Shown here one piece after another: positions 952-35,691 of a stretch of 38,185 bases of DNA (its first letter is position 1; the number at the start of each line of letters is the position of its first letter). Made by a program: the position numbers and the translations under genes. The stretch covers positions 1 to 38,185 of the forward strand of contig JAJQFO010000255.1 of NCBI GenBank assembly GCA_021201095.1. The letters are read 5' to 3'. The notes under the pieces were generated by a model that ran no database searches, was not told the origin of the DNA, and was given only the letters and a program-made list of their open reading frames with translations. The stretch comes from Lachnospiraceae bacterium. Its GTDB lineage: Bacteria > Bacillota > Clostridia > Lachnospirales > Lachnospiraceae.

Positions 952-1992
952 TTGAGTATTATTATTGCGCTGATTGTGTTCAGCCTCATTATTATCGTAC
1001 ACGAGCTGGGACATTTTCTGCTGGCGAAGATGAACGGAATCACGGTTCTGGAGTTTTCTGTCGGCATGGGGCCGCGTCTTCTGAGCCATCAGAAGGAGGG
1101 CAGCACACGATATTCGCTGAAGCTCCTGCCGTTTGGCGGCTCCTGCATGATGCTGGGCGAGGACGGCGAGGACAATGGCGAGGAGGGGTCGTTCCAGAGC
1201 AAATTTGTGGGAGCCCGCATTTCAGTCGTCGCGGCTGGCCCGATTTTTAACTTTATTCTGGCTTTTGTGCTTTCTATTTTTATTGTAGGCGCAATCGGTT
1301 ACGATCCTGCGGTTGTCCTGGGCGTGACGGAGGGATATCCGGCCGCCGAGGCGGGACTTCAGGAAGGGGATCTGATTACCCGCATGAACGGAAAACACAT
1401 CCGGCTGTACAGACAGTTTTATAATTATATTTACTTTCACAGCGGAGAGACCATAGAATTTGAATATGAGCGCGACGGTGCGACGTATACCGCAGTGATC
1501 ACCCCGGTCATGACGGATAACGGCTACAAATTTGGCATTTCCGGCAGCACTAATTACCGTTATAAGACTGGACCGATACAGACTCTGTATTACAGTGCCT
1601 ATGAGGTATGGTACTGGATTGATACGACCTTGCAGAGCCTGAATCTGCTGATTCACGGAGGCGTTTCCCTGGACGACATGTCCGGACCGGTGGGGGTTGT
1701 CAGCACGATCTCAGAAACCTATGAGGAAAGCAAATCGGACGGCGTGTATTATATCTGGCTGAACATGCTGAATATTGCAATCCTGCTGACCGCGAACCTC
1801 GGGGTTATGAATCTTTTGCCTATCCCTGCTCTGGACGGCGGACGTCTGGTATTTTTGATCATAGAGGCTGTCCGCCGGAAACGGATTTCTCCGGAGCTGG
1901 AAGGGCGGGTTCATTTAGTTGGACTGATGCTGCTGATGGTACTGATGGTGGTGATTATGTTTAATGACGTGCTGAAAATAGTGATACAATGA
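952..1992 (+). CDS. rseP: RIP metalloprotease RseP (site-2 protease family)
   Basis: Intramembrane zinc metalloprotease that cleaves anti-sigma factors and remnant signal peptides in the cytoplasmic membrane. The first membrane helix holds the HELGH zinc motif (residues 17-21 from the chosen start). A PDZ domain follows in the middle (around VLGVTEGYPAAEAGLQEGD), and the C-terminal helices hold the NLLPIPALDGGRL motif with the third metal ligand. I choose TTG at 952 because AGGTGA sits a few bases upstream. The alternative GTG at 934, directly after the dxr stop, has no convincing Shine-Dalgarno and would add six residues. About 346 residues is normal for the family. It is likely the last gene of the dxr operon, since repeats and then a terminator follow. 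Confidence 0.94.
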   Translation: MSIIIALIVFSLIIIVHELGHFLLAKMNGITVLEFSVGMGPRLLSHQKEGSTRYSLKLLPFGGSCMMLGEDGEDNGEEGSFQSKFVGARISVVAAGPIFNFILAFVLSIFIVGAIGYDPAVVLGVTEGYPAAEAGLQEGDLITRMNGKHIRLYRQFYNYIYFHSGETIEFEYERDGATYTAVITPVMTDNGYKFGISGSTNYRYKTGPIQTLYYSAYEVWYWIDTTLQSLNLLIHGGVSLDDMSGPVGVVSTISETYEESKSDGVYYIWLNMLNIAILLTANLGVMNLLPIPALDGGRLVFLIIEAVRRKRISPELEGRVHLVGLMLLMVLMVVIMFNDVLKIVIQ

Positions 1993-2235
1993 GAGCCGCG
2001 CAACTGAAAATCGCTGCGCGATTGTATATCCCGTACGAAGTGCGGAATGCCCACATCCACAATCAAAGATTGTGGACATACCACACCCCACAATCGAAGA
2101 TTGGGGAATATCCCATGCGAAGCGTGGGGGAAGCCACCCGGCGAGGGGCAAAACCTGGCGAGGGGCGCGGTACCGTTCTCGATTTGCTGCGCAAATCGGA
2201 ACATTGCCTGCGTCCATACTCACAAGCGAATATGA
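1993..2235 (+). repeat. Mosaic palindrome repeat, copy R1
   Basis: Noncoding stretch between rseP and the terminator at 2266, built of short hairpin words in series. Examples are ATCCCGTAC-GAA-GTGCGGGAT, TCCACAATC-AAA-GATTGTGGA, CCCATGC-GAA-GCGTGGG, CGATTTGC-TGC-GCAAATCG and a TACTCRCAAGCGAATA block. The same words recur, in other orders and orientations, at 10546-10766, 11522-11762, 19703-20029 and 26730-26945. Open frames crossing it are artefacts of the GC-rich palindromes. Function is unknown. Confidence 0.8.
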
Positions 2236-2265
2236 CATGAGATAAGGCAAGGCTGGGAAAACACA

Positions 2266-2303
2266 AAATCCACACCGCGGGAAAAGAACGGTGTGGATTT
2301 TTC
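2266..2303 (+). terminator. Intrinsic terminator after dxr-rseP
   Basis: An 11-bp perfect stem (AAATCCACACC at 2266-2276 with GGTGTGGATTT at 2290-2300) closes a 13-base loop and runs into a T tract. It ends the dxr-rseP transcription unit after repeat R1. Confidence 0.8.
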
Positions 2304-2425
2304 TATGCACAGAGCCGGGCAAGGTATTTTTGCGGCAGATGCCGCACCAAAAATGTGAAAGGAACATTTGCCTATATGGACTGTTTTATTTTTTTGATTA
2401 CTAATATGAGAATAGATAAAATTAT

Positions 2426-2596
2426 ATGTTGACAATTAAAGATAATATTGATACAATAATGCAGAAATATTACATGACGGAAGATCACATGGCTGTGCCT
2501 GAAATGGCAATGCTTCGCAAGGAACTGAAAGAAGGCAGAAAGGAAGCCGGAAAAGAAGGCAAAGAAATGCTTGACAACGGCGCGAAAGTAGAGTAG
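2426..2596 (+). CDS. Possible 56-codon ORF upstream of recA
   Basis: An uninterrupted frame starting MLTIKDNID encodes a charged, Lys/Glu-rich, helix-prone peptide (ELKEGRKEAGKEGKEML near the end). No Shine-Dalgarno precedes the ATG at 2426, and this start overlaps the recA promoter, so transcripts from that promoter could only use the internal ATG at 2474 (40 codons), which also lacks a clear RBS. It may be a leader peptide, a decayed gene or chance. I cannot assign a function. Confidence 0.2.
   Translation: MLTIKDNIDTIMQKYYMTEDHMAVPEMAMLRKELKEGRKEAGKEGKEMLDNGAKVE
2429..2457 (+). promoter_or_regulatory. Sigma-A promoter for recA
   Basis: TTGACA (2429-2434), a 17-bp spacer, then TACAAT (2452-2457): near-perfect sigma-A consensus. 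Transcription would start near 2464, leaving a 5' leader of about 175 nt before recA. Confidence 0.75.
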
Positions 2597-2610
2597 GATA
2601 AGCAAAGAGA

Positions 2611-2624
2611 CGAACATAAGTTCG
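2611..2624 (+). promoter_or_regulatory. LexA (SOS) box in the recA leader
   Basis: CGAACATAAGTTCG is a perfect palindrome matching the Gram-positive LexA/DinR consensus (CGAAC-N4-GTTCG). It lies just before the recA Shine-Dalgarno (AGGAGG, 2628-2633) and about 150 bp downstream of the best promoter match, so LexA would act as a roadblock, or a nearer promoter exists that I do not see. Confidence 0.8.
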
Positions 2625-2638
2625 AACAGGAGGGACAA

Positions 2639-3802
2639 ATGGCACAGGAAGACAAATTAAAGGCACTTGATGCCGCACTTACACAGATTGAAAAGCAGTT
2701 TGGCAAGGGCGCAGTGATGAAACTGGGAGATACCGGCGCCCACATGAATATTGAGACGACTCCTACCGGTTCCCTGAGTCTTGATATCGCACTTGGACTC
2801 GGCGGGATTCCGAAGGGACGTGTTGTGGAGATTTACGGACCAGAGTCCAGCGGTAAGACTACAGTGGCCCTGCATATGGTCGCTGAGGTGCAGAAGCTTG
2901 GCGGCATCGCAGGCTTCATTGATGCAGAGCATGCATTAGACCCGGTATACGCGAAAAATATCGGAGTAGATATTGATAATCTTTACATTTCTCAGCCGGA
3001 TAACGGAGAGCAGGGGCTTGAGATCACGGAGACGATGGTCCGTTCCGGCGCGGTTGACATTATTATTGTGGATTCCGTGGCAGCACTGGTTCCGAAGGCT
3101 GAGATTGAGGGAGACATGGGAGATGCCCATGTAGGACTTCAGGCCCGGCTGATGTCCCAGGCATTACGAAAGCTGACAGGCGTGATCAGCAAATCAAACT
3201 GTACCGTAATCTTTATCAATCAGCTGCGAGAGAAGGTAGGGATTATGTTTGGCAATCCTGAGACCACGACTGGCGGCCGCGCGCTGAAATTTTACTCCTC
3301 TATCCGTCTGGATGTGCGCAGGACAGAGTCCCTGAAGCAGGGCGGAGAGGTGATCGGAAACCATGTTCGTGTAAAGGTTGTAAAGAATAAGATTGCGCCG
3401 CCTTTTAAAGAGGCGGAATTTGACATCATGTTTGGACAGGGCATTTCCAGAGAAGGGGATATTCTGGACCTTGCTGCGAATAACAATATCATTAATAAAA
3501 GCGGAGCATGGTATGCTTACAATGGCAATAAGATCGGCCAGGGCCGTGAAAATGCCAAGATTTATCTGAAGGAGCATCCGGACGTGATGATGGAGGTCGA
3601 CCGCAAAGTGCGTCAGCATTACGGCCTGATTGATGCAGACGAGCCTGATACACGCACAGGTGGCAAGACAGCGGGCTCCAAAACGCGTTCTCTCAAGGAT
3701 GCTGCACCCAAAACAGATGGAAAAGAGACTCGCGGCGAGGTTTTGAGTGAGGCTCTGTCAGCATCGGACGAAGCAGCTGGTAAGAGTGAGACTGAGGCTT
3801 GA
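2639..3802 (+). CDS. recA: Recombinase RecA
   Basis: ATP-dependent DNA strand-exchange protein and co-protease for LexA self-cleavage. Walker A is GPESSGKT at residues 67-74; Walker B is the [14 protein letters not shown] segment; the NQLREKVG and [13 protein letters not shown] stretches of the DNA-binding loops are intact. The core ends near residue 330 and a Lys/Glu/Ser-rich tail brings the length to 387, somewhat longer than the usual 340-360. The ATG at 2639 has a strong AGGAGGG Shine-Dalgarno and the standard M-A-x-E-x-K N-terminus. Its leader has a LexA box, so it is SOS-induced. recX lies 71 bp downstream in the same orientation, the typical regulator pairing. Confidence 0.98.
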
Positions 3803-8738: not shown

Positions 8739-8818
8739 GCGGCCATGACGGAATTGGCAGACGTGCAGGATTTAGGTTCCTGTGGGAGACCGTGCGGGTT
8801 CGACTCCCGCTGGCCGCA
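8739..8818 (+). tRNA. tRNA-Leu (anticodon TAG)
   Basis: Class II tRNA: acceptor GCGGCCA/TGGCCGC, anticodon stem CAGGA/TCCTG, loop TTTAGGT (TAG), a variable arm, and T loop TTCGACT. Last gene of the cluster. The 80 bp before it contain TTGACA at 8701 within a small inverted repeat, which may be a secondary promoter. Confidence 0.96.
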
Positions 8819-8924: not shown

Positions 8925-9028
8925 ATTATGGGAAGAAAACCGCTTCCCATAATGCTCCAGAATCTGGCGATTCTGTCGCTAACTTATCGGGTGAAAGCCC
9001 GCAAGCGCGCTTTCCTTCCGATAAGTTA
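8925..9028 (+). repeat. Three-hairpin element, copy A
   Basis: A 104-bp unit of three perfect inverted repeats: ATTATGGGAAG/CTTCCCATAAT (8925-8935, 8943-8953) around an AAAACCG loop; CAGAATC/GATTCTG (8958-8964, 8969-8975) around TGGC; TAACTTATCGG/CCGATAAGTTA (8980-8990, 9018-9028). Copies B (20657-20748) and C (34670-34773) share the layout and most bases. This copy fills most of the space between tRNA-Leu and the threonine aldolase gene. Confidence 0.88.
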
Positions 9029-9071
9029 TATTATAGGAACGCAAGAAAATTAGCAGACAACGGAGGCATTT

Positions 9072-10103
9072 ATGTTATCTTTTGAGAGCGACTATACGAC
9101 CGGAGCACATCCGGCAATTCTTCGGAGACTGATGGAGACGAACCTGGAGCCTTATTCCGGGTATGGAAATGATCCCTATTGCGAGAGTGCGAAAGAGAAG
9201 ATTCGCGCCGCCTGTGGTTGTCCGGAGGCAGAAATCTGGTTTTTGGCCGGAGGGACACAGACCAACGCTATGGTGATTTCCACGATGCTGCGGGATTACG
9301 AAGGCGTGGTTGCCGCAGATACGGGACATGTGAATACGCACGAAGCTGGTGCGATCGAATACAGCGGACATAAGGTGCTGCCCATCAGACATCGGGACGG
9401 GAAAATTGACGCGGCTGATCTGAGAGAGTATCTGGCGCAGTTTTACCAGGATGGAAATCATGAACATATGGTCTTTCCGGGAATGGTTTATATCTCTCAT
9501 CCGACGGAGTACGGGACTTTGTATACAAAAAGCGAGATGGAGAGCCTTTCCGCTGTCTGCAGGGAGTATGAGATTCCTCTGTACATGGATGGCGCCCGCC
9601 TGGGATACGCTTTGATGAGCAGCCAAAGTGATATGGTTCTTCCGGATATTGCGCAGCTGTGTGATGTTTTTTACATTGGCGGGACGAAGGTCGGTGCACT
9701 TTGCGGAGAGGCGCTGGTTTTTACAAAGCATAACATGCCGAAGCATTTTCTGGCGCTGGTAAAGCAGCGAGGGGCTTTATTGGCGAAAGGGCGCCTGCTG
9801 GGCATACAGTTTGATACGCTGTTTACGGATGATCTGTACTGGAAGATCTCCAGCCACGCGATTCGTATGGCAGAAAAGCTGAAAACAGTGCTTCATGAAA
9901 AAAGCTGCAAAATTTATCTGGAATCTCCTACAAACCAGCAGTTTATCATTCTGACGGATGAAAAACTGGCCGAGCTCAGCCAAAAGGTCACTCTTAGCTT
10001 CTGGGAAAAAACTGACGAGACGCATACTGCCGTACGGCTGGCTACAAGCTGGTCTACGACGGAAGAGGATATTGAACAGCTTGGAGAATTACTTTCACGT
10101 TAG
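9072..10103 (+). CDS. Threonine aldolase family PLP enzyme
   Basis: Pyridoxal-phosphate fold-type I enzyme of the low-specificity threonine aldolase/beta-eliminating lyase family, cleaving L-threonine or allo-threonine to glycine and acetaldehyde. SYYTGAHP-like N-terminus (here SDYTTGAHP), AGGTQTN for PLP phosphate binding, DTGHVNTHE, DGARLGYAL with the Asp that binds the pyridine nitrogen, and GGTKVGAL with Lys206 as the PLP Schiff-base residue. 343 residues is the family length. Start ATG 9072 has CGGAGG upstream, and it ends in a clear terminator at 10115, so it is a single-gene unit. The stereopreference cannot be read from the sequence. Confidence 0.93.
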   Translation: MLSFESDYTTGAHPAILRRLMETNLEPYSGYGNDPYCESAKEKIRAACGCPEAEIWFLAGGTQTNAMVISTMLRDYEGVVAADTGHVNTHEAGAIEYSGHKVLPIRHRDGKIDAADLREYLAQFYQDGNHEHMVFPGMVYISHPTEYGTLYTKSEMESLSAVCREYEIPLYMDGARLGYALMSSQSDMVLPDIAQLCDVFYIGGTKVGALCGEALVFTKHNMPKHFLALVKQRGALLAKGRLLGIQFDTLFTDDLYWKISSHAIRMAEKLKTVLHEKSCKIYLESPTNQQFIILTDEKLAELSQKVTLSFWEKTDETHTAVRLATSWSTTEEDIEQLGELLSR

Positions 10104-10529: not shown

Positions 10530-10545
10530 TTTATTTTCCTCCCCT

Positions 10546-10766
10546 TATTCCAGCGAAGCAACGAGCCAGGTAGCCGGAGCCATAAGGTATCCACCGGCAA
10601 GCCGGTCCCCCTTATGGCATAGCTTGCGCGGATCTTTGGCGGTGCTGTGTGCCAGTGGCACACGTTTAGCACCGACCGGAGCGAAGCGTAGATGTCGCGA
10701 GGGTCAAATACCCCGATGCTTGCGTCGCTGCAAATTGGTGCCCCGTATGCTTGCATCGGGGTCATT
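10546..10766. repeat. Mosaic palindrome repeat, copy R2
   Basis: Noncoding region upstream of the XRE gene with nested stems: GCCATAAGG/CCTTATGGC (10579-10587, 10610-10618) enclosing ACCGGC-AA-GCCGGT; GTGTGCC-AGT-GGCACAC (10647-10663) inside a GGTGCT/AGCACC stem; and ACCCCGATGC/GCATCGGGGT (10710-10719, 10753-10762). The GTGTGCC word is also in R4 and R5. The first 40 bases resemble 37595-37630. Confidence 0.75.
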
Positions 10767-11521: not shown

Positions 11522-11762
11522 GTATTGTATGTCCGTATTCGCTTGCGAGTATGGACGCAGGCAATGTTCCGATTTGCGCAGCAAATCGAGAACGGTACCG
11601 CGCCCCTCGCCGGGGTGGCATCCCGCACTTCGTACGGGATATACCATCGCGCAGCGATTTTTAGTTGCGCGGCTTTCATTGTATGTCCGTACTCGCTTGC
11701 GAGTATGGACGCAGGCCGCGCCAATCGCGCAGCGATTTTTAGTTGCGCGGCTTTCATTGTAG
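11522..11762 (-). repeat. Mosaic palindrome repeat, copy R3
   Basis: Reverse-complement relative of R1: the CCCGCAC-TTC-GTACGGG hairpin, the GCGCAGCGATTTTTAGTTGCGC word (twice, near 11652 and 11729), and a GTATTCGCTTGCGAGTATGGAC word (near 11526 and 11693). The end of this copy (11690-11762) repeats two words in tandem, showing how the mosaic grows. The rest of the 713-bp gap to the DJ-1 gene is A-rich and repetitive (next entry). Confidence 0.8.
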
Positions 11763-19111: not shown

Positions 19112-19702
19112 ATGATTATTAAAGAAGCAAGCCTTGAGACGGTATGCGGGATTACAAGCAGACTTCCGGAAAATGATAAATGTGAGGTGGCGTTTGCCGG
19201 AAAGTCCAACGTAGGCAAATCCTCCCTGATCAACACGCTGCTGAACCGGAAATCCCTGGCCCGTACCAGCGCACAGCCGGGGAAGACGCAGACGATTAAT
19301 TTTTATAACGTCAACGATCTTCTGTATCTGGTGGATCTCCCAGGGTATGGATATGCGAAGGTTCCCCAGTCGGAAAAAGAAAAATGGGGAAAAATGATTG
19401 AACGGTATCTGCACACCTCCAGGCAGCTGAAAGCAGTTTTCCTGCTGATTGATATCCGGCACGAGCCTGGGGCCAACGACCGCACCATGTATGAGTGGAT
19501 CTGCAGCAACGGCTATGAACCCATCATACTGGCGACCAAGCTGGACAAGATCAAACGCAGCCAGGTACAACACCAGATGAAGCTTCTGCGTGAAGGCCTG
19601 AGCCTTCGCCCCGGCACGGAGATCATTCCTTTTTCCTCCCAGACACGTCAGGGACGAGACGAAACGTGGGCGGAGATTGAAAAAATCTGTTTAATCGAAT
19701 AG
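19112..19702 (+). CDS. engB: Ribosome biogenesis GTP-binding protein YihA/YsxC (EngB)
   Basis: Small essential GTPase for late 50S subunit assembly. G1 GKSNVGKS (30-37), the G2 threonine in GKTQTINFY, G3 DLPGYG, G4 TKLDK and G5-like PFSS are all intact. I start at ATG 19112 (MIIKEASLE), preceded by AGGGGA, giving 196 residues as in other Firmicutes. The upstream 33 codons to 19013 translate the tandem repeat and have no support. lon-engB adjacency is common in Firmicutes. Confidence 0.95.
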   Translation: MIIKEASLETVCGITSRLPENDKCEVAFAGKSNVGKSSLINTLLNRKSLARTSAQPGKTQTINFYNVNDLLYLVDLPGYGYAKVPQSEKEKWGKMIERYLHTSRQLKAVFLLIDIRHEPGANDRTMYEWICSNGYEPIILATKLDKIKRSQVQHQMKLLREGLSLRPGTEIIPFSSQTRQGRDETWAEIEKICLIE

Positions 19703-20029
19703 GAGGCGGCTTGCCGGCTCCTACTTGTCCGCGCGGTTGCTGTGTGCCAGTGGCACACGTTTAGCCCTCGCCGGGTAGTGCCCCAATCTCTGATTGTGGG
19801 GCGCGGGCATCCCACGCTTCGCATGGGATATTCAACGACCGAAGCGGAGCGTAGATGGGTGCGGCTTTAGCCGCAAAACACCCTCGCCGGGTGGCATCCC
19901 ACGCTTCGCATGGGATATGCCTTGCCCGGTTCTGCTTTTTAATCAGACAGGGGAGGAACCTTCTCCCCTGTCCGCTGCGCGAGCCGGGTGCGGCTTCAGC
20001 CGCAAAAATTCCTTACCCGGCTCTGCGCA
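19703..20029. repeat. Mosaic palindrome repeat, copy R4
   Basis: Noncoding region after engB. The first 150 bp are the reverse complement of R5 (26730-26945): an AGGAGGCGGCTTGCCGGCTCCT word, GTGTGCC-AGT-GGCACAC, CCCAATC-TCT-GATTGTGGGG, CCCACGC-TTC-GCATGGG and a CGACCGAAGCGGAGCGTAG word. The CCCACGC word then recurs near 19898-19915, and TGCGGCT-TTA-GCCGCA near 19860. Ends at the shared terminator of engB and rpsT. Confidence 0.8.
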
Positions 20030-20030
20030 T

Positions 20031-20085
20031 AAAAAAACCCCCCGCTGCCGATAAGAGGGTATCAACAGCGGGGGTAATTTTTGTT
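20031..20085. terminator. Bidirectional terminator between engB and rpsT
   Basis: CCCCCGCTG (20039-20047) pairs with CAGCGGGGG (20066-20074). An A7 run on the left gives a T run on the minus strand for rpsT, and TAATTTTTGTTTTT on the right serves the plus strand. Confidence 0.8.
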
Positions 20086-20656: not shown

Positions 20657-20748
20657 ATTATGAGAAGAAAACCGCTTCTTATAATGCTCCAGAATCTGGC
20701 GATTCCGTCGCTAACTTATCGGGTGAAAACTCTCCTTCCGATAAGTTA
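20657..20748 (+). repeat. Three-hairpin element, copy B
   Basis: A 92-bp copy. Stem 1 is ATTATGAGAAG/CTTCTTATAAT (one G-T pair where copy C has G-C), stem 2 has one mismatch, and stem 3 TAACTTATCGG/CCGATAAGTTA (20712-20722, 20738-20748) is identical to copy A. The distal loop is 12 bases shorter than in A and C. It lies 67 bp before the sulfhydrylase start and would be in its leader. Confidence 0.88.
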
Positions 20749-20815
20749 AATCAGGGAAAACACAGCTGCGCGAGGATACCAGACAGCTGCGAAAAACAGG
20801 AAGAGAGGACTTAAA

Positions 20816-22099
20816 ATGAGCGATTACAGAATTGGCACGCGCTGCGTGCAGGGCGGCTACACACCGGGCAATGGGGAGCCGCGTCAGATCCCGATTGTGC
20901 AGTCTACGACATTTCGTTACGCGACCAGCGAGGATATGGGGAAGCTGTTTGACCTGGAGGCGAGCGGTTATTTTTATACGCGTCTGCAGAATCCGACCAA
21001 TGATCACGTGGCAGCGAAGATCACGGAGATGGAAGGCGGCACTGCCGGAATGCTGACCTCCTCCGGGCAGGCGGCAAACTTTTTCGCACTGTTTAACATC
21101 TGCGAGTGCGGCGACCATATTGTTTCTTCTTCCTCCATCTACGGAGGGACGTTTAATCTGATTTCCGTGACGATGGCCAAGATGGGGATTACGGCGACCT
21201 TTGTCAGCCCGGACGCAAGTGAGGAGGAGCTGAACGCGGCCTTTCAGCCGAATACAAAGGCGGTTTTTGGAGAGACCATCGCAAATCCGGCACTGACGGT
21301 GCTGGATATTGAAAAATTTGCAAAAGTGGCTCATGAGCATGGCGTGCCGCTGATTGTGGATAACACCTTCCCGACGCCGGTCAACTGTCGTCCGTTCGAG
21401 TGGGGAGCGGATATTGTCACACATTCGACGACAAAATACATGGACGGCCACGGAGCGGCTGTGGGCGGAGCGATTATCGATCATGGTGTCTTTGACTGGA
21501 TGGCTCACGCGGAGAAATTTCCCGGACTGTGTACACCGGATGAGAGCTACCACGGCATTACCTATGCGGAAAAGTTTGGCAAAGAAGGCGCGTTTATCAC
21601 CAAATGCACCTCTCAGCTGATGCGCGACTTCGGCTCCATACAGTCTCCGCAGAACGCATTCCTGCTGAATCTTGGACTGGAATCCCTGCATGTGCGTATG
21701 CCGAAGCACGTGGAAAACGGACAGGCTGTCGCGGAATTCCTCTATAATCACCCGAAGGTGGCGTATGTGAATTATTCCGGGCTTCCGACCGACAAATATT
21801 ATGAGATTGCACAGAAATATCTGCCGAACGGCGGCTGCGGCATCGTCTCCTTCGGCCTGAAGGGCGGCAGGGAGGCAGCATCGATCTTTATGCGCGAGCT
21901 GAAGCTGGGGGCGATCGAGACCCATGTGGCGGACGCGCGGACCTGCTGTCTGAATCCGGCGACCTCCACTCACCGCCAGATGAATGATGAGCAGCTGGCC
22001 GAGGCAGGTGTACCGGCAGAGCTGATCCGCATCAGCCTGGGGCTGGAGGACAAGGAGGATCTGATCGCGGATATCGCGAATGCATTAGATGCGATCTGA
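20816..22099 (+). CDS. metY: O-acetylhomoserine sulfhydrylase (Cys/Met metabolism PLP enzyme)
   Basis: PLP enzyme that makes homocysteine from O-acetylhomoserine and sulfide in direct methionine biosynthesis. Fold-type I gamma-family motifs: YTRLQNPTND, SSGQAANF, GGTFNL, VDNTFPTP, and HSTTKYMDGHG with Lys207 as the Schiff-base lysine; the late LNPATSTHRQM segment is also typical. 427 residues and the internal insertion after the PLP lysine (EKFPGLCTPDESYHG) fit the MetY group better than cystathionine gamma-synthase (about 380). GAGAGG precedes the ATG. A related C-S lyase lies at 25483. No SAM riboswitch or T-box is recognisable upstream. Confidence 0.93.
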   Translation: MSDYRIGTRCVQGGYTPGNGEPRQIPIVQSTTFRYATSEDMGKLFDLEASGYFYTRLQNPTNDHVAAKITEMEGGTAGMLTSSGQAANFFALFNICECGDHIVSSSSIYGGTFNLISVTMAKMGITATFVSPDASEEELNAAFQPNTKAVFGETIANPALTVLDIEKFAKVAHEHGVPLIVDNTFPTPVNCRPFEWGADIVTHSTTKYMDGHGAAVGGAIIDHGVFDWMAHAEKFPGLCTPDESYHGITYAEKFGKEGAFITKCTSQLMRDFGSIQSPQNAFLLNLGLESLHVRMPKHVENGQAVAEFLYNHPKVAYVNYSGLPTDKYYEIAQKYLPNGGCGIVSFGLKGGREAASIFMRELKLGAIETHVADARTCCLNPATSTHRQMNDEQLAEAGVPAELIRISLGLEDKEDLIADIANALDAI

Positions 22100-26729: not shown

Positions 26730-26945
26730 ATGGGGATGATATCTACGCTTCGCTTCGGTCGTTGAATATCCCATGCGAAGCGTGGAATGCCCGCGCCCCA
26801 CAATCAGAGATTGGGGCTTATCCCGTCCGAAGGACGAGGATGCCACCCCGGCGAGGGGGCATTATCCGGCGAGGGCTAAACGTGTGCCACTGGCACACAG
26901 CAACCGCGCGGCGAGTAGGATTCGGCAAGCCGCCTCCTACTCGAT
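26730..26945. repeat. Mosaic palindrome repeat, copy R5
   Basis: Between the convergent PatB-type gene and the minus-strand ATPase gene. Word order is the reverse complement of R4: CTACGCTTCGCTTCGGTCG, CCCATGC-GAA-GCGTGG, CCCCACAATC-AGA-GATTGGGG, GTCC-GAA-GGAC, GTGTGCC-ACT-GGCACAC (26882-26898), then a GGCAAGCCGCCTCCTACTC word. Confidence 0.8.
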
Positions 26946-26974
26946 TACATGGGACGCGTAAGGAATTTTCCAGC

Positions 26975-34261: not shown

Positions 34262-34345
34262 AGAAGTGCAGAAGCGTAAAAGTGCAGAAATATAGAGAGA
34301 TAGAAGCATAAAAGTGCAGAAGTATAGAGGTATTGAAGCATAGAG
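34262..34345 (+). repeat. Tandem repeat between ddrB and pduO
   Basis: About 33-bp units with AGAAGCRTAAAAGTGCAGAA and TATAGAG, two and a half copies, purine-rich on the plus strand. It fills most of the 179-bp gap before pduO. Confidence 0.7.
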
Positions 34346-34434
34346 ACAAGGCATGCAGAACTCGTTTGAGAATGGAATCAGCAAAGAATCAGATAGTCAG
34401 GAATCACGCAGCAGACAGGGAAAGGAGTACGGCA

Positions 34435-35691
34435 GTGAAAATTTATACCAAAACAGGCGACCGAATGACGACCGGACTCCTAGACGGGACGCGGGTATCC
34501 AAGCATGATGAACGCATTCATCTTCTTGGAAACATCGACGAACTGAACAGCCAGCTCGGCGTGGTAAAGAGCCTCACGGCGGAACCGGCGCGGAAGGAAG
34601 AGCTTTCCGGCATCCAGAGAATGCTGATGAGGATCATGTCCGGAATTGCGGACGCTTCACAATCAGGAGATTATGAGAAGAAAACCGCTTCTCATAATCC
34701 TCCAGAATCTGGCGATTCTGTCGCTAACTTATCGGTTCCGAGTACGCAAGCGTCCTCTCCTTCCGATAAGTTAAACTATCAGGTGGATGCAGCTTCCATT
34801 GCGCATCTGGAGGCAGAGATTGACCGCATGGAATCTGCTTTTGAGCGGATAAAAGACTTTGTTCTGCCTGGCGGCTCCTTTTATTCCGCCCAGATTGATG
34901 TGGCGAGGACCGTGACCAGACGCTGCGAGCGCTGGTTCGCCCAGGTGGCGGAAGAATATCCCATGGATACAGAGGCAGCCCGTTACCTGAACCGTCTTTC
35001 TGATTACCTGTATGTACTGGCCCGGTATGTGGATGCTTCTGATCAGGAACAGACACAGCAGACGCCTGGAGCAGAACATTCACTTGAAGGGCAATCTTTG
35101 GGCGATTCTTTATCGATAGAGCAAAAAGACATAAAAGCCATAAAAGACACAAAAGACATAAAAGACATAAAAGATATAAAAGACGCAATAGGTGCAAAAG
35201 ATTCATCAGATAAAAAAATCGCCCTTACTGCGGAAAGAGCACAACAGGCTGTTGACCGGCTCCACAGGCAGATCAATAATTCCTGCGGGACATTCTATAC
35301 CTTCTGCGTCTGTGACGCCGAGGGAAAGCAGCTGGCGACAAACGCGCTGGCGCATTATTCAGTGGCTGTCTTTGAGGCACAGCGTTCCGCCACGAACGCG
35401 CTCCTGCGGGCTGCCAGAGCTGCTGTGGGGACAGGAGCAGATGCTGCGTCAGGGCAGACAGCAACATTCGGCTCAATCTCAACGTCAGGGCAGACCGTGT
35501 TATCTGCGCCGATAGCAGCACCAGGCCAACTGGCGGCAGCAGGATCAGCTGCGGTACCAGAAGATGGAGGAGCCGCTATATACATTCAGGGCCAGCTGAC
35601 CGGCAGCGTGGGCGTGTATGGCTCATACAAAAAAGACATAAATGAAAAAGCACAGATGCTGCTGGATTTGCTTTGTTTTACTGGAAGGTAA
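34435..35691 (+). CDS. pduO: PduO-type cob(I)alamin adenosyltransferase with C-terminal GlcG/HbpS-like domain
   Basis: Transfers the adenosyl group of ATP to cob(I)alamin, supplying the dehydratase cofactor. N-terminal PduO ATP-binding motif YTKTGDRMTTGLLDG, then RIHLLGNIDELNSQLG, LPGGSFYSAQIDVART (from residue 144) and YLNRLSDYLYVLARY (184-198). The C-terminal part, from about residue 264 (LTAERAQQAVDRLHRQ... IQGQLTGSVGVYGSY), resembles the DUF336/GlcG heme-binding domain of PduO. GTG 34435 has AAAGGAG seven bases upstream. Three insertions: the three-hairpin element (residues ~79-113), a KDI repeat (from 231), and a Ser/Gly/Ala-rich repeat near 331-380. 418 residues against 336 in Salmonella. 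Whether it is fully active is untested. Confidence 0.92.
   Translation: MKIYTKTGDRMTTGLLDGTRVSKHDERIHLLGNIDELNSQLGVVKSLTAEPARKEELSGIQRMLMRIMSGIADASQSGDYEKKTASHNPPESGDSVANLSVPSTQASSPSDKLNYQVDAASIAHLEAEIDRMESAFERIKDFVLPGGSFYSAQIDVARTVTRRCERWFAQVAEEYPMDTEAARYLNRLSDYLYVLARYVDASDQEQTQQTPGAEHSLEGQSLGDSLSIEQKDIKAIKDTKDIKDIKDIKDAIGAKDSSDKKIALTAERAQQAVDRLHRQINNSCGTFYTFCVCDAEGKQLATNALAHYSVAVFEAQRSATNALLRAARAAVGTGADAASGQTATFGSISTSGQTVLSAPIAAPGQLAAAGSAAVPEDGGAAIYIQGQLTGSVGVYGSYKKDINEKAQMLLDLLCFTGR
34670..34773 (+). repeat. Three-hairpin element, copy C, inside pduO
   Basis: A 104-bp copy with perfect stem 1 ATTATGAGAAG/CTTCTCATAAT (34670-34680, 34688-34698), stem 2 CAGAATC/GATTCTG, and stem 3 TAACTTATCGG/CCGATAAGTTA (34725-34735, 34763-34773). 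It is read without a stop as DYEKKTASHNPPESGDSV and following residues, in the loop between the second and third helices of the adenosyltransferase domain. Confidence 0.88.
35125..35187 (+). repeat. 9-bp tandem repeat (Lys-Asp-Ile) inside pduO
   Basis: AAAGACATA-type triplets of codons repeat about seven times, encoding KDIKAIKDTKDIKDIKDIKD as a charged linker between the two domains. Confidence 0.85.

Follow-up and report, generated by a model that had tools for sequence, protein, structure and literature searches.

What is a short stretch of DNA that folds into three hairpins, stands just upstream of some genes and lies within the reading frame of another? Three copies of such a sequence are found in the window, by which we mean the whole 38,185-nucleotide stretch of Lachnospiraceae DNA that was analysed. 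The first-pass annotation had noticed paired base changes in stem 1 and took them to point to either a structured RNA or a transposition substrate. With a probability of about 85%, we favor the second kind of answer: a family of non-autonomous mobile DNA elements, each consisting of three abutting hairpins and adding a net 105 bp or so.

Three copies and their fold

The features on which the argument rests, all on the plus strand, are as follows.

8925-9034, +, copy A of the three-hairpin element (fold z -8.3)
8925-8953, +, hairpin 1 of copy A, ATTATGGGAAG-AAAACCG-CTTCCCATAAT, whose pairs covary
8958-8975, +, hairpin 2 of copy A, CAGAATC-TGGC-GATTCTG, near-invariant family-wide
8980-9028, +, hairpin 3 of copy A, outer stem TAACTTATCGG/CCGATAAGTTA plus an inner stem, whose pairs covary
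20657-20754, +, copy B, 5' of the gene at 20816
34670-34779, +, copy C, in frame within an adenosyltransferase gene
34333-35691, +, PduO-type cobalamin adenosyltransferase ORF (452 aa), in which copy C is an in-frame insertion of about 35 residues

The common architecture is ATTATGNGAAG-AAAACCG-CTTCNCATAAT, the constant CAGAATC hairpin given above and TAACTTATCGG...CCGATAAGTTA, one abutting the next. Copy A lies between tRNA-Leu (8739-8818) and a 343-aa gene starting at 9072, and its last 5 nucleotides (9030-9034) are ATTAT, a pentamer of the target type. The element proper of copy B spans about 20657-20749, followed by the target sequence ATCAG, and its hairpin 3 loop is 12 nucleotides shorter. 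In copy C, the element proper (about 34670-34774) is followed by a target-derived ACTAT. The in-frame position of copy C within a protein-coding gene had escaped the earlier reading.

All three copies fold well. RNA folding energies are -48.8, -30.4, and -38.5 kcal/mol for A, B, and C, respectively, and the z scores of B and C against dinucleotide-preserving shuffles are -4.9 and -7.4; for each copy, none of 200 such shuffles folds as well. DNA parameters give the same fold for copy A as RNA parameters, and both strands of the element fold equally well. Stem 1, 11 bp at full length (ATTATGNGAAG/CTTCNCATAAT), indeed carries the paired substitutions first noticed in its inner part, GGGAAG/CTTCCC in copy A and GAGAAG/CTTCTC in copy C, and copy B does have a single G-T pair there (20662 with 20680). 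Stem 3 had been called identical in all three copies, which holds for its outer 11 bp but not for the inner part of the hairpin.

A second, GC-rich palindromic repeat family is also present in the window, in both orientations, at 1984-2348, 10545-10696, 11524-11761, 19692-20040, and 26738-26947.

Pairing kept in RNA or in DNA

Do the paired changes hold when many copies are aligned? The covariation check proposed with the first-pass annotation was passed strongly. In 36 diverse copies, 153 pair cells were doubly changed, against 38 in shuffles, and in a larger alignment of 93 matches, which was fitted to the covariance model, the numbers were 370 against 71; both count sequences and not independent events. 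Standard pairs filled 94.8% of the pair cells in the 36 copies, two-sided changes occurred in 21 of 36 pairs, and sliding the pairing partner abolished the signal. The variation sits in hairpins 1 and 3, while hairpin 2 is nearly constant.

Covariation of this strength would ordinarily bring RNA to mind, but the mismatches can be asked which molecule is under selection. Selection on a top-strand RNA should leave more G-T than A-C mismatches, and selection on a bottom-strand RNA the reverse. The element does neither: G-T and A-C mismatches number 13 and 23 in the MAFFT alignment and 45 and 39 in the larger one, in neither case different from equality, whereas the control, tRNA acceptor stems at the same loci, gives 45 and 7 (with some register noise). 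By this comparison, an RNA wobble signature is absent on both strands of the element. Because G-T is no commoner than A-C, unlike in tRNA, the pairing appears to be kept at the DNA level, and the paired changes are probably best explained by upkeep there, whether the hairpin is selected as DNA or each palindrome arm serves as the template for correcting the other.

This weighs heavily against a structured RNA (a small RNA, a leader, or an mRNA-stability element) whose fold was selected and whose copies multiplied secondarily. Such an RNA would suit the stable conserved fold, the strong covariation, and the placement of copies A and B just upstream of genes. We nevertheless consider it very improbable, given not only the mismatch counts but also the equal folding of both strands, an Rfam search of the window that returned tRNAs only and no family for the element, and the exact insertions, tandem arrays, and copies within coding sequence described below, which suggest a mobile element. 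The RNA half of the first suggestion is thus not supported.

A better-placed alternative does without selection altogether. Through template switching at replication, each arm of a palindrome would be corrected against the other, and the fold would be functionless. Template-switch correction is an established mechanism for quasi-palindromes in bacteria, and it fits the observation that variant standard pairs are nearly all Watson-Crick and two-sided (148 of 217 non-modal cells, with 13 G-T), one-sided intermediates being rare. It fits less well with hairpin 2, which stays almost invariant beside variable hairpins 1 and 3 and so suggests specific recognition, or with the persistence of the three-hairpin layout in another family with a different sequence. 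We see about one chance in three for it, and it is compatible with mobility, competing only over the cause of the pair covariation. Of the earlier proposal that selection for folding is the simplest explanation, then, the reality of the paired changes stands, but templated arm correction would produce the same pattern.

Copies, empty sites, and movement

How widespread is the element? BLAST finds 46 matches in the host genome (best E value about 1e-52), a similarity far above chance, and we count about 45 copies there; sister species hold many more. With a covariance model made from 11 copies, host matches number 43 to 57 depending on filters and threshold, the figure of 57 being taken at E values up to 1 and including some reverse-strand self matches. 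Matches occur in 25 of 60 relatives, and every strong one is in the same genus as the host. Within the genus the distribution is patchy, with about 20 copies in some species and none in others, and an order-wide search of 196 genomes found only five with a match at 1e-4, the host among them. Plasmid and phage records contained no element match, nor did viral contigs searched with the core pattern. The element thus occurs in uncultured Lachnospiraceae-like bacteria, a group to which ClpP assigns the host. The genomes are metagenome-type assemblies, and contamination of the host assembly is estimated at 5%.

The idea of a transposition substrate gains its main support from empty sites in sister species. 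A close relative, G062, whose sequence is about 94% identical in this region, lacks copies B and C, and further site pairs were found by searching with joined flanks.

Copy B, empty site at G062:C166 (L290)
Copy C, empty site at G062:C166 (L233)
Host loci L016 and L002 occupied, G062 empty
G062 locus L349 occupied, host empty
One shared site occupied in G062 (L362) and G060 (L367), G001 empty

The gene for the anaerobic ribonucleotide reductase NrdD supplies another occupied/empty pair. In the clearest pair, the sequence is ATAAATAAA-ATTCC-GTGCG where the element is missing and ATAAATAAA-ATTATG...GTTAA-ATTCC-GTGCG where it is present, so that ATTATG on the left is part of the element and the pentamer on the right is part of the target. 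The net gain is 105 nucleotides in this pair and about 105 across pairs. The target is short and AT-rich, NATT(AT)-like, reading N-ATT-AT on the top strand and ATAAT on the bottom strand, and in the site pairs the insertions lie next to it with fixed polarity. An empty site could in principle record precise loss; taken together, the site pairs indicate that the element moves. The candidate pair L010/L347 was too divergent to use as an empty site.

Is the target duplicated? In 59 of 71 single copies, against 37 expected, the nucleotide just ahead of the element is found again just behind GTTA, which suggests a possible duplication of about 2 nucleotides (NA) or a matched core, although short homology could mimic duplication and the match may be partly inherited by subfamily. 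At sites B and C, the left target copy differs from the empty site, so the length of any duplication is uncertain. A duplication of 5 to 6 bp was rejected because the left copy at these two sites departs from the target at positions that do not vary in the element, and insertion without any duplication fits poorly with the matched flanking base. The idea that the end of hairpin 1 recognizes the target by base pairing was likewise set aside: copies with ACTATG at the start of hairpin 1 are still found at ATTAT. Twelve of 84 copies directly follow another copy, the tandem units having ATTAT in common.

These observations can be drawn into a mechanism that is in part provisional. The empty sites show the element landing beside its short AT-rich target (N-ATT-AT) with ATTATG...GTTA placed before it, leaving a target-derived pentamer at the right end and about 2 nucleotides (N, A) repeated on both sides. 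The DNA hairpins would be the substrate of a trans-acting recombinase, perhaps acting on folded single-stranded DNA, and the paired base changes would reflect palindromes maintained at the DNA level, not a role as RNA. The strand polarity may point to a single-stranded DNA intermediate, as may the subterminal hairpins and the upkeep of pairing in DNA.

Which enzyme might be responsible? No mobilizing enzyme or autonomous copy was found. An IS200/IS605-type Y1 (HUH) transposase might move the elements as RAYTs move REPs, cutting a folded single strand beside a short target and inserting it with fixed polarity. Subterminal hairpins without a terminal inverted repeat would be in keeping with this, as would the fixed polarity toward a short target, ATAAT when read on the bottom strand, whose motif recurs at the element's end. 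However, Y1_Tnp is undetected in four copy-bearing genomes (G004, G013, G027, and G030, two of them incomplete) and only partial in the host, the Y1 family does not track copy number, and element pieces occur in only 2 of 20 Y1 loci, where they do not flank the gene. In addition, the target does not vary with the end of hairpin 1, the GTAG tag is absent, and the bases flanking the element on its two sides match; to our knowledge, the IS200/IS605 family makes no target duplication. A Y1 enzyme therefore seems unlikely. Slightly better odds, though still doubtful ones, go to a serine or tyrosine recombinase that would integrate the element as a circle, with the exchange falling inside a short matched core (NA or NATT). 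The matched core base and the ATTAT shared by tandem units speak for it, and the core may be passed down within subfamilies (y=A is associated with A at position 7, p 0.006), but orthologous copies inflate that association, several cores show C/T mismatches, and no such recombinase is linked to the elements.

Copies inside proteins, and relatives

Copy C is one of 12 copies found in frame within genes or at their ends. All 12 are in the sense orientation and all in the same reading frame.

Genic copies 1 to 4: PduO-type adenosyltransferase (copy C), OppD-like ATPase, CxxCxxCC protein, acyl-CoA dehydratase activase
Genic copies 5 and 6: AAA-ATPase/PDDEXK_9 protein, APH-like kinase (weak, below the Pfam cut-off)
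Genic copies 7 to 9: topoisomerase III, exonuclease, GH36 alpha-galactosidase
Genic copies 10 to 12: anaerobic ribonucleotide reductase NrdD, sortase, ABC exporter

The survey parsed 84 distinct copies, and long ORFs run through some; the 12 cases are those backed by protein families or by a recognizable neighboring domain. Inspection led us to discard the sense ORFs in the other open frame (L148, L178, L181, and others), as well as L183, L185, L191, and L204, as probable shadow or upstream frames. An antisense copy near the N terminus of a RecD2 helicase, with the host frame open (L182 of G027, ORF 1362-3200), was counted separately. A CotS/APH-like kinase ORF (L172 of G021, 945-2171) carries two successive in-frame element-derived stretches.

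The shared frame reads YEKKTASHNAPESGDSVANLSG...PSDKLY. Net lengths are all multiples of three, 105 nucleotides (35 codons) in 11 of the 12 and 141 (47 codons) in the other. Four copies lie near C termini, and the rest are internal or split a domain. In the gene of copy C, Pfam PF01923 covers residues 44-240 (NCBIfam TIGR00636), the insert takes up residues 120-155 of the stop-to-stop frame 34312-35688, and adenosyltransferase relatives in the PDB align as two blocks flanking it. The linker of this gene also holds a 9-nucleotide tandem repeat, AAAGACATA (KDI), at 35115-35213. In NrdD, the genomes G014, G013, and G010 are without the insert, residues 1-522 matching and then 556/557 onward; the 35 residues are present in G008 and G015 and absent from most relatives. 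Insert-free close relatives were compared for copy C and NrdD only, the other genic cases being protein-family matches.

Why always the same frame? It is also open in 53 of 72 non-genic copies, so the open frame is largely the element's own property, and the one-frame bias within genes is best read as survivorship. Genic copies would survive because they are 105 nucleotides long, open in that frame, and predicted to encode a hydrophilic peptide.

The hairpin loops themselves accept insertions. A GC-rich module that looks related to the second repeat family of the window (CGGTCGGCGCTAAACGGACATCCACTGGATGTCCAGCGCC and variants) occupies the hairpin 3 loop of many copies and, in L208 and L211, the loop of hairpin 1. 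At one orthologous site, hairpin 3 holds a GC-rich palindromic module in G008 (L202) and lacks it in G021 (L168) and G060 (L365), so the module was acquired or dropped at the site itself. Another palindromic module (CAGCTGTGC...GCACATCTG...GCAGC) sits in the hairpin 2 loop of L143, L153, L204, L206, and L207, with the stem kept. Among flanks, L004 (G000:C5) and L152 (G014:C50) have the left one in common, while the right flank of L152 matches L015 (G000:C49), whose contig starts within an element; either copies have recombined or the assembly is broken there.

Units of the same layout but different sequence, ending in TTTATATTAT, are found in two genomes of another family of the order (G175 and G199; L385, L387, and L413-L421), arrayed in tandem in G175. 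Though few, these copies hint at a broader element class beyond the genus. We offer as a tentative idea, somewhat less probable than its converse, a class of three-hairpin elements spanning several families of one order, moved as folded single-stranded DNA by a trans-acting enzyme, that would keep the layout ATTAT-three hairpins-ATTAT but not the sequence and would repeatedly add a 35-residue module to proteins.

How does the family relate to known repeats? No report of palindromic elements of this kind from Lachnospiraceae was found in the openly accessible literature. The closest likeness is to the Rickettsia palindromic elements (RPE), which are palindromic, 105 to 146 bp long, and listed with a 12-bp terminal inverted repeat and an unknown target duplication (PMC2229807, Table 1 for the inverted repeat). 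They sit in frame in unrelated genes (PMC2229807, PMC10969869), and similar protein-coding palindromes have been reported in Wolbachia and Methanocaldococcus jannaschii (PMC2996958). Compared by features given in reviews and not by sequence, both families are short palindromic repeats, intergenic or in frame in unrelated conserved genes, that encode no transposase. The present elements differ in having three separate abutting hairpins, a host of a different phylum, and empty sites with a defined target site. Their ends, ATTATGNGAAG and ...AAGTTA(N), are not mutually complementary, and since they are without the terminal inverted repeats given for RPE, we do not file them there.

REP/REPIN sequences are also short palindromes in many copies and probably non-autonomous (PMC3733652), but the present hairpins have ATTAT-like feet that bear neither a GTAG nor a CGTC tag, copy number is not tracked by any RAYT/Y1 gene, and the element consists of three hairpins bounded by a target-like pentamer. 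Correia/NEMIS, ERIC, RUP, and other bacterial MITEs resemble the family in being non-autonomous, hairpin forming, and about 100 to 200 bp long, and some are read through as ORFs; they carry terminal inverted repeats, and the target they duplicate is mostly TA (PMC2229807). Neither is true of the three-hairpin element. BOX elements have a modular build, and the likeness lies in modular repeats with a module present or absent, but we know of no sequence relation, the modules here lie within hairpin loops, and copies occur in frame in genes. BOX elements of Streptococcus pneumoniae are named in PMC2267715 and PMC10969869.

Two consequences follow from the analysis. Strong covariation in genomic repeats need not imply RNA, and comparing G-T with A-C mismatches separates RNA from DNA upkeep. 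Moreover, protein-coding palindromes have been puzzling ever since their description in Rickettsia. Here, one bacterial family combines many copies and empty sites in sister species with a defined target and a fixed frame, which makes the movement of such elements, the enzyme behind it, and the tolerance of host proteins for them testable.
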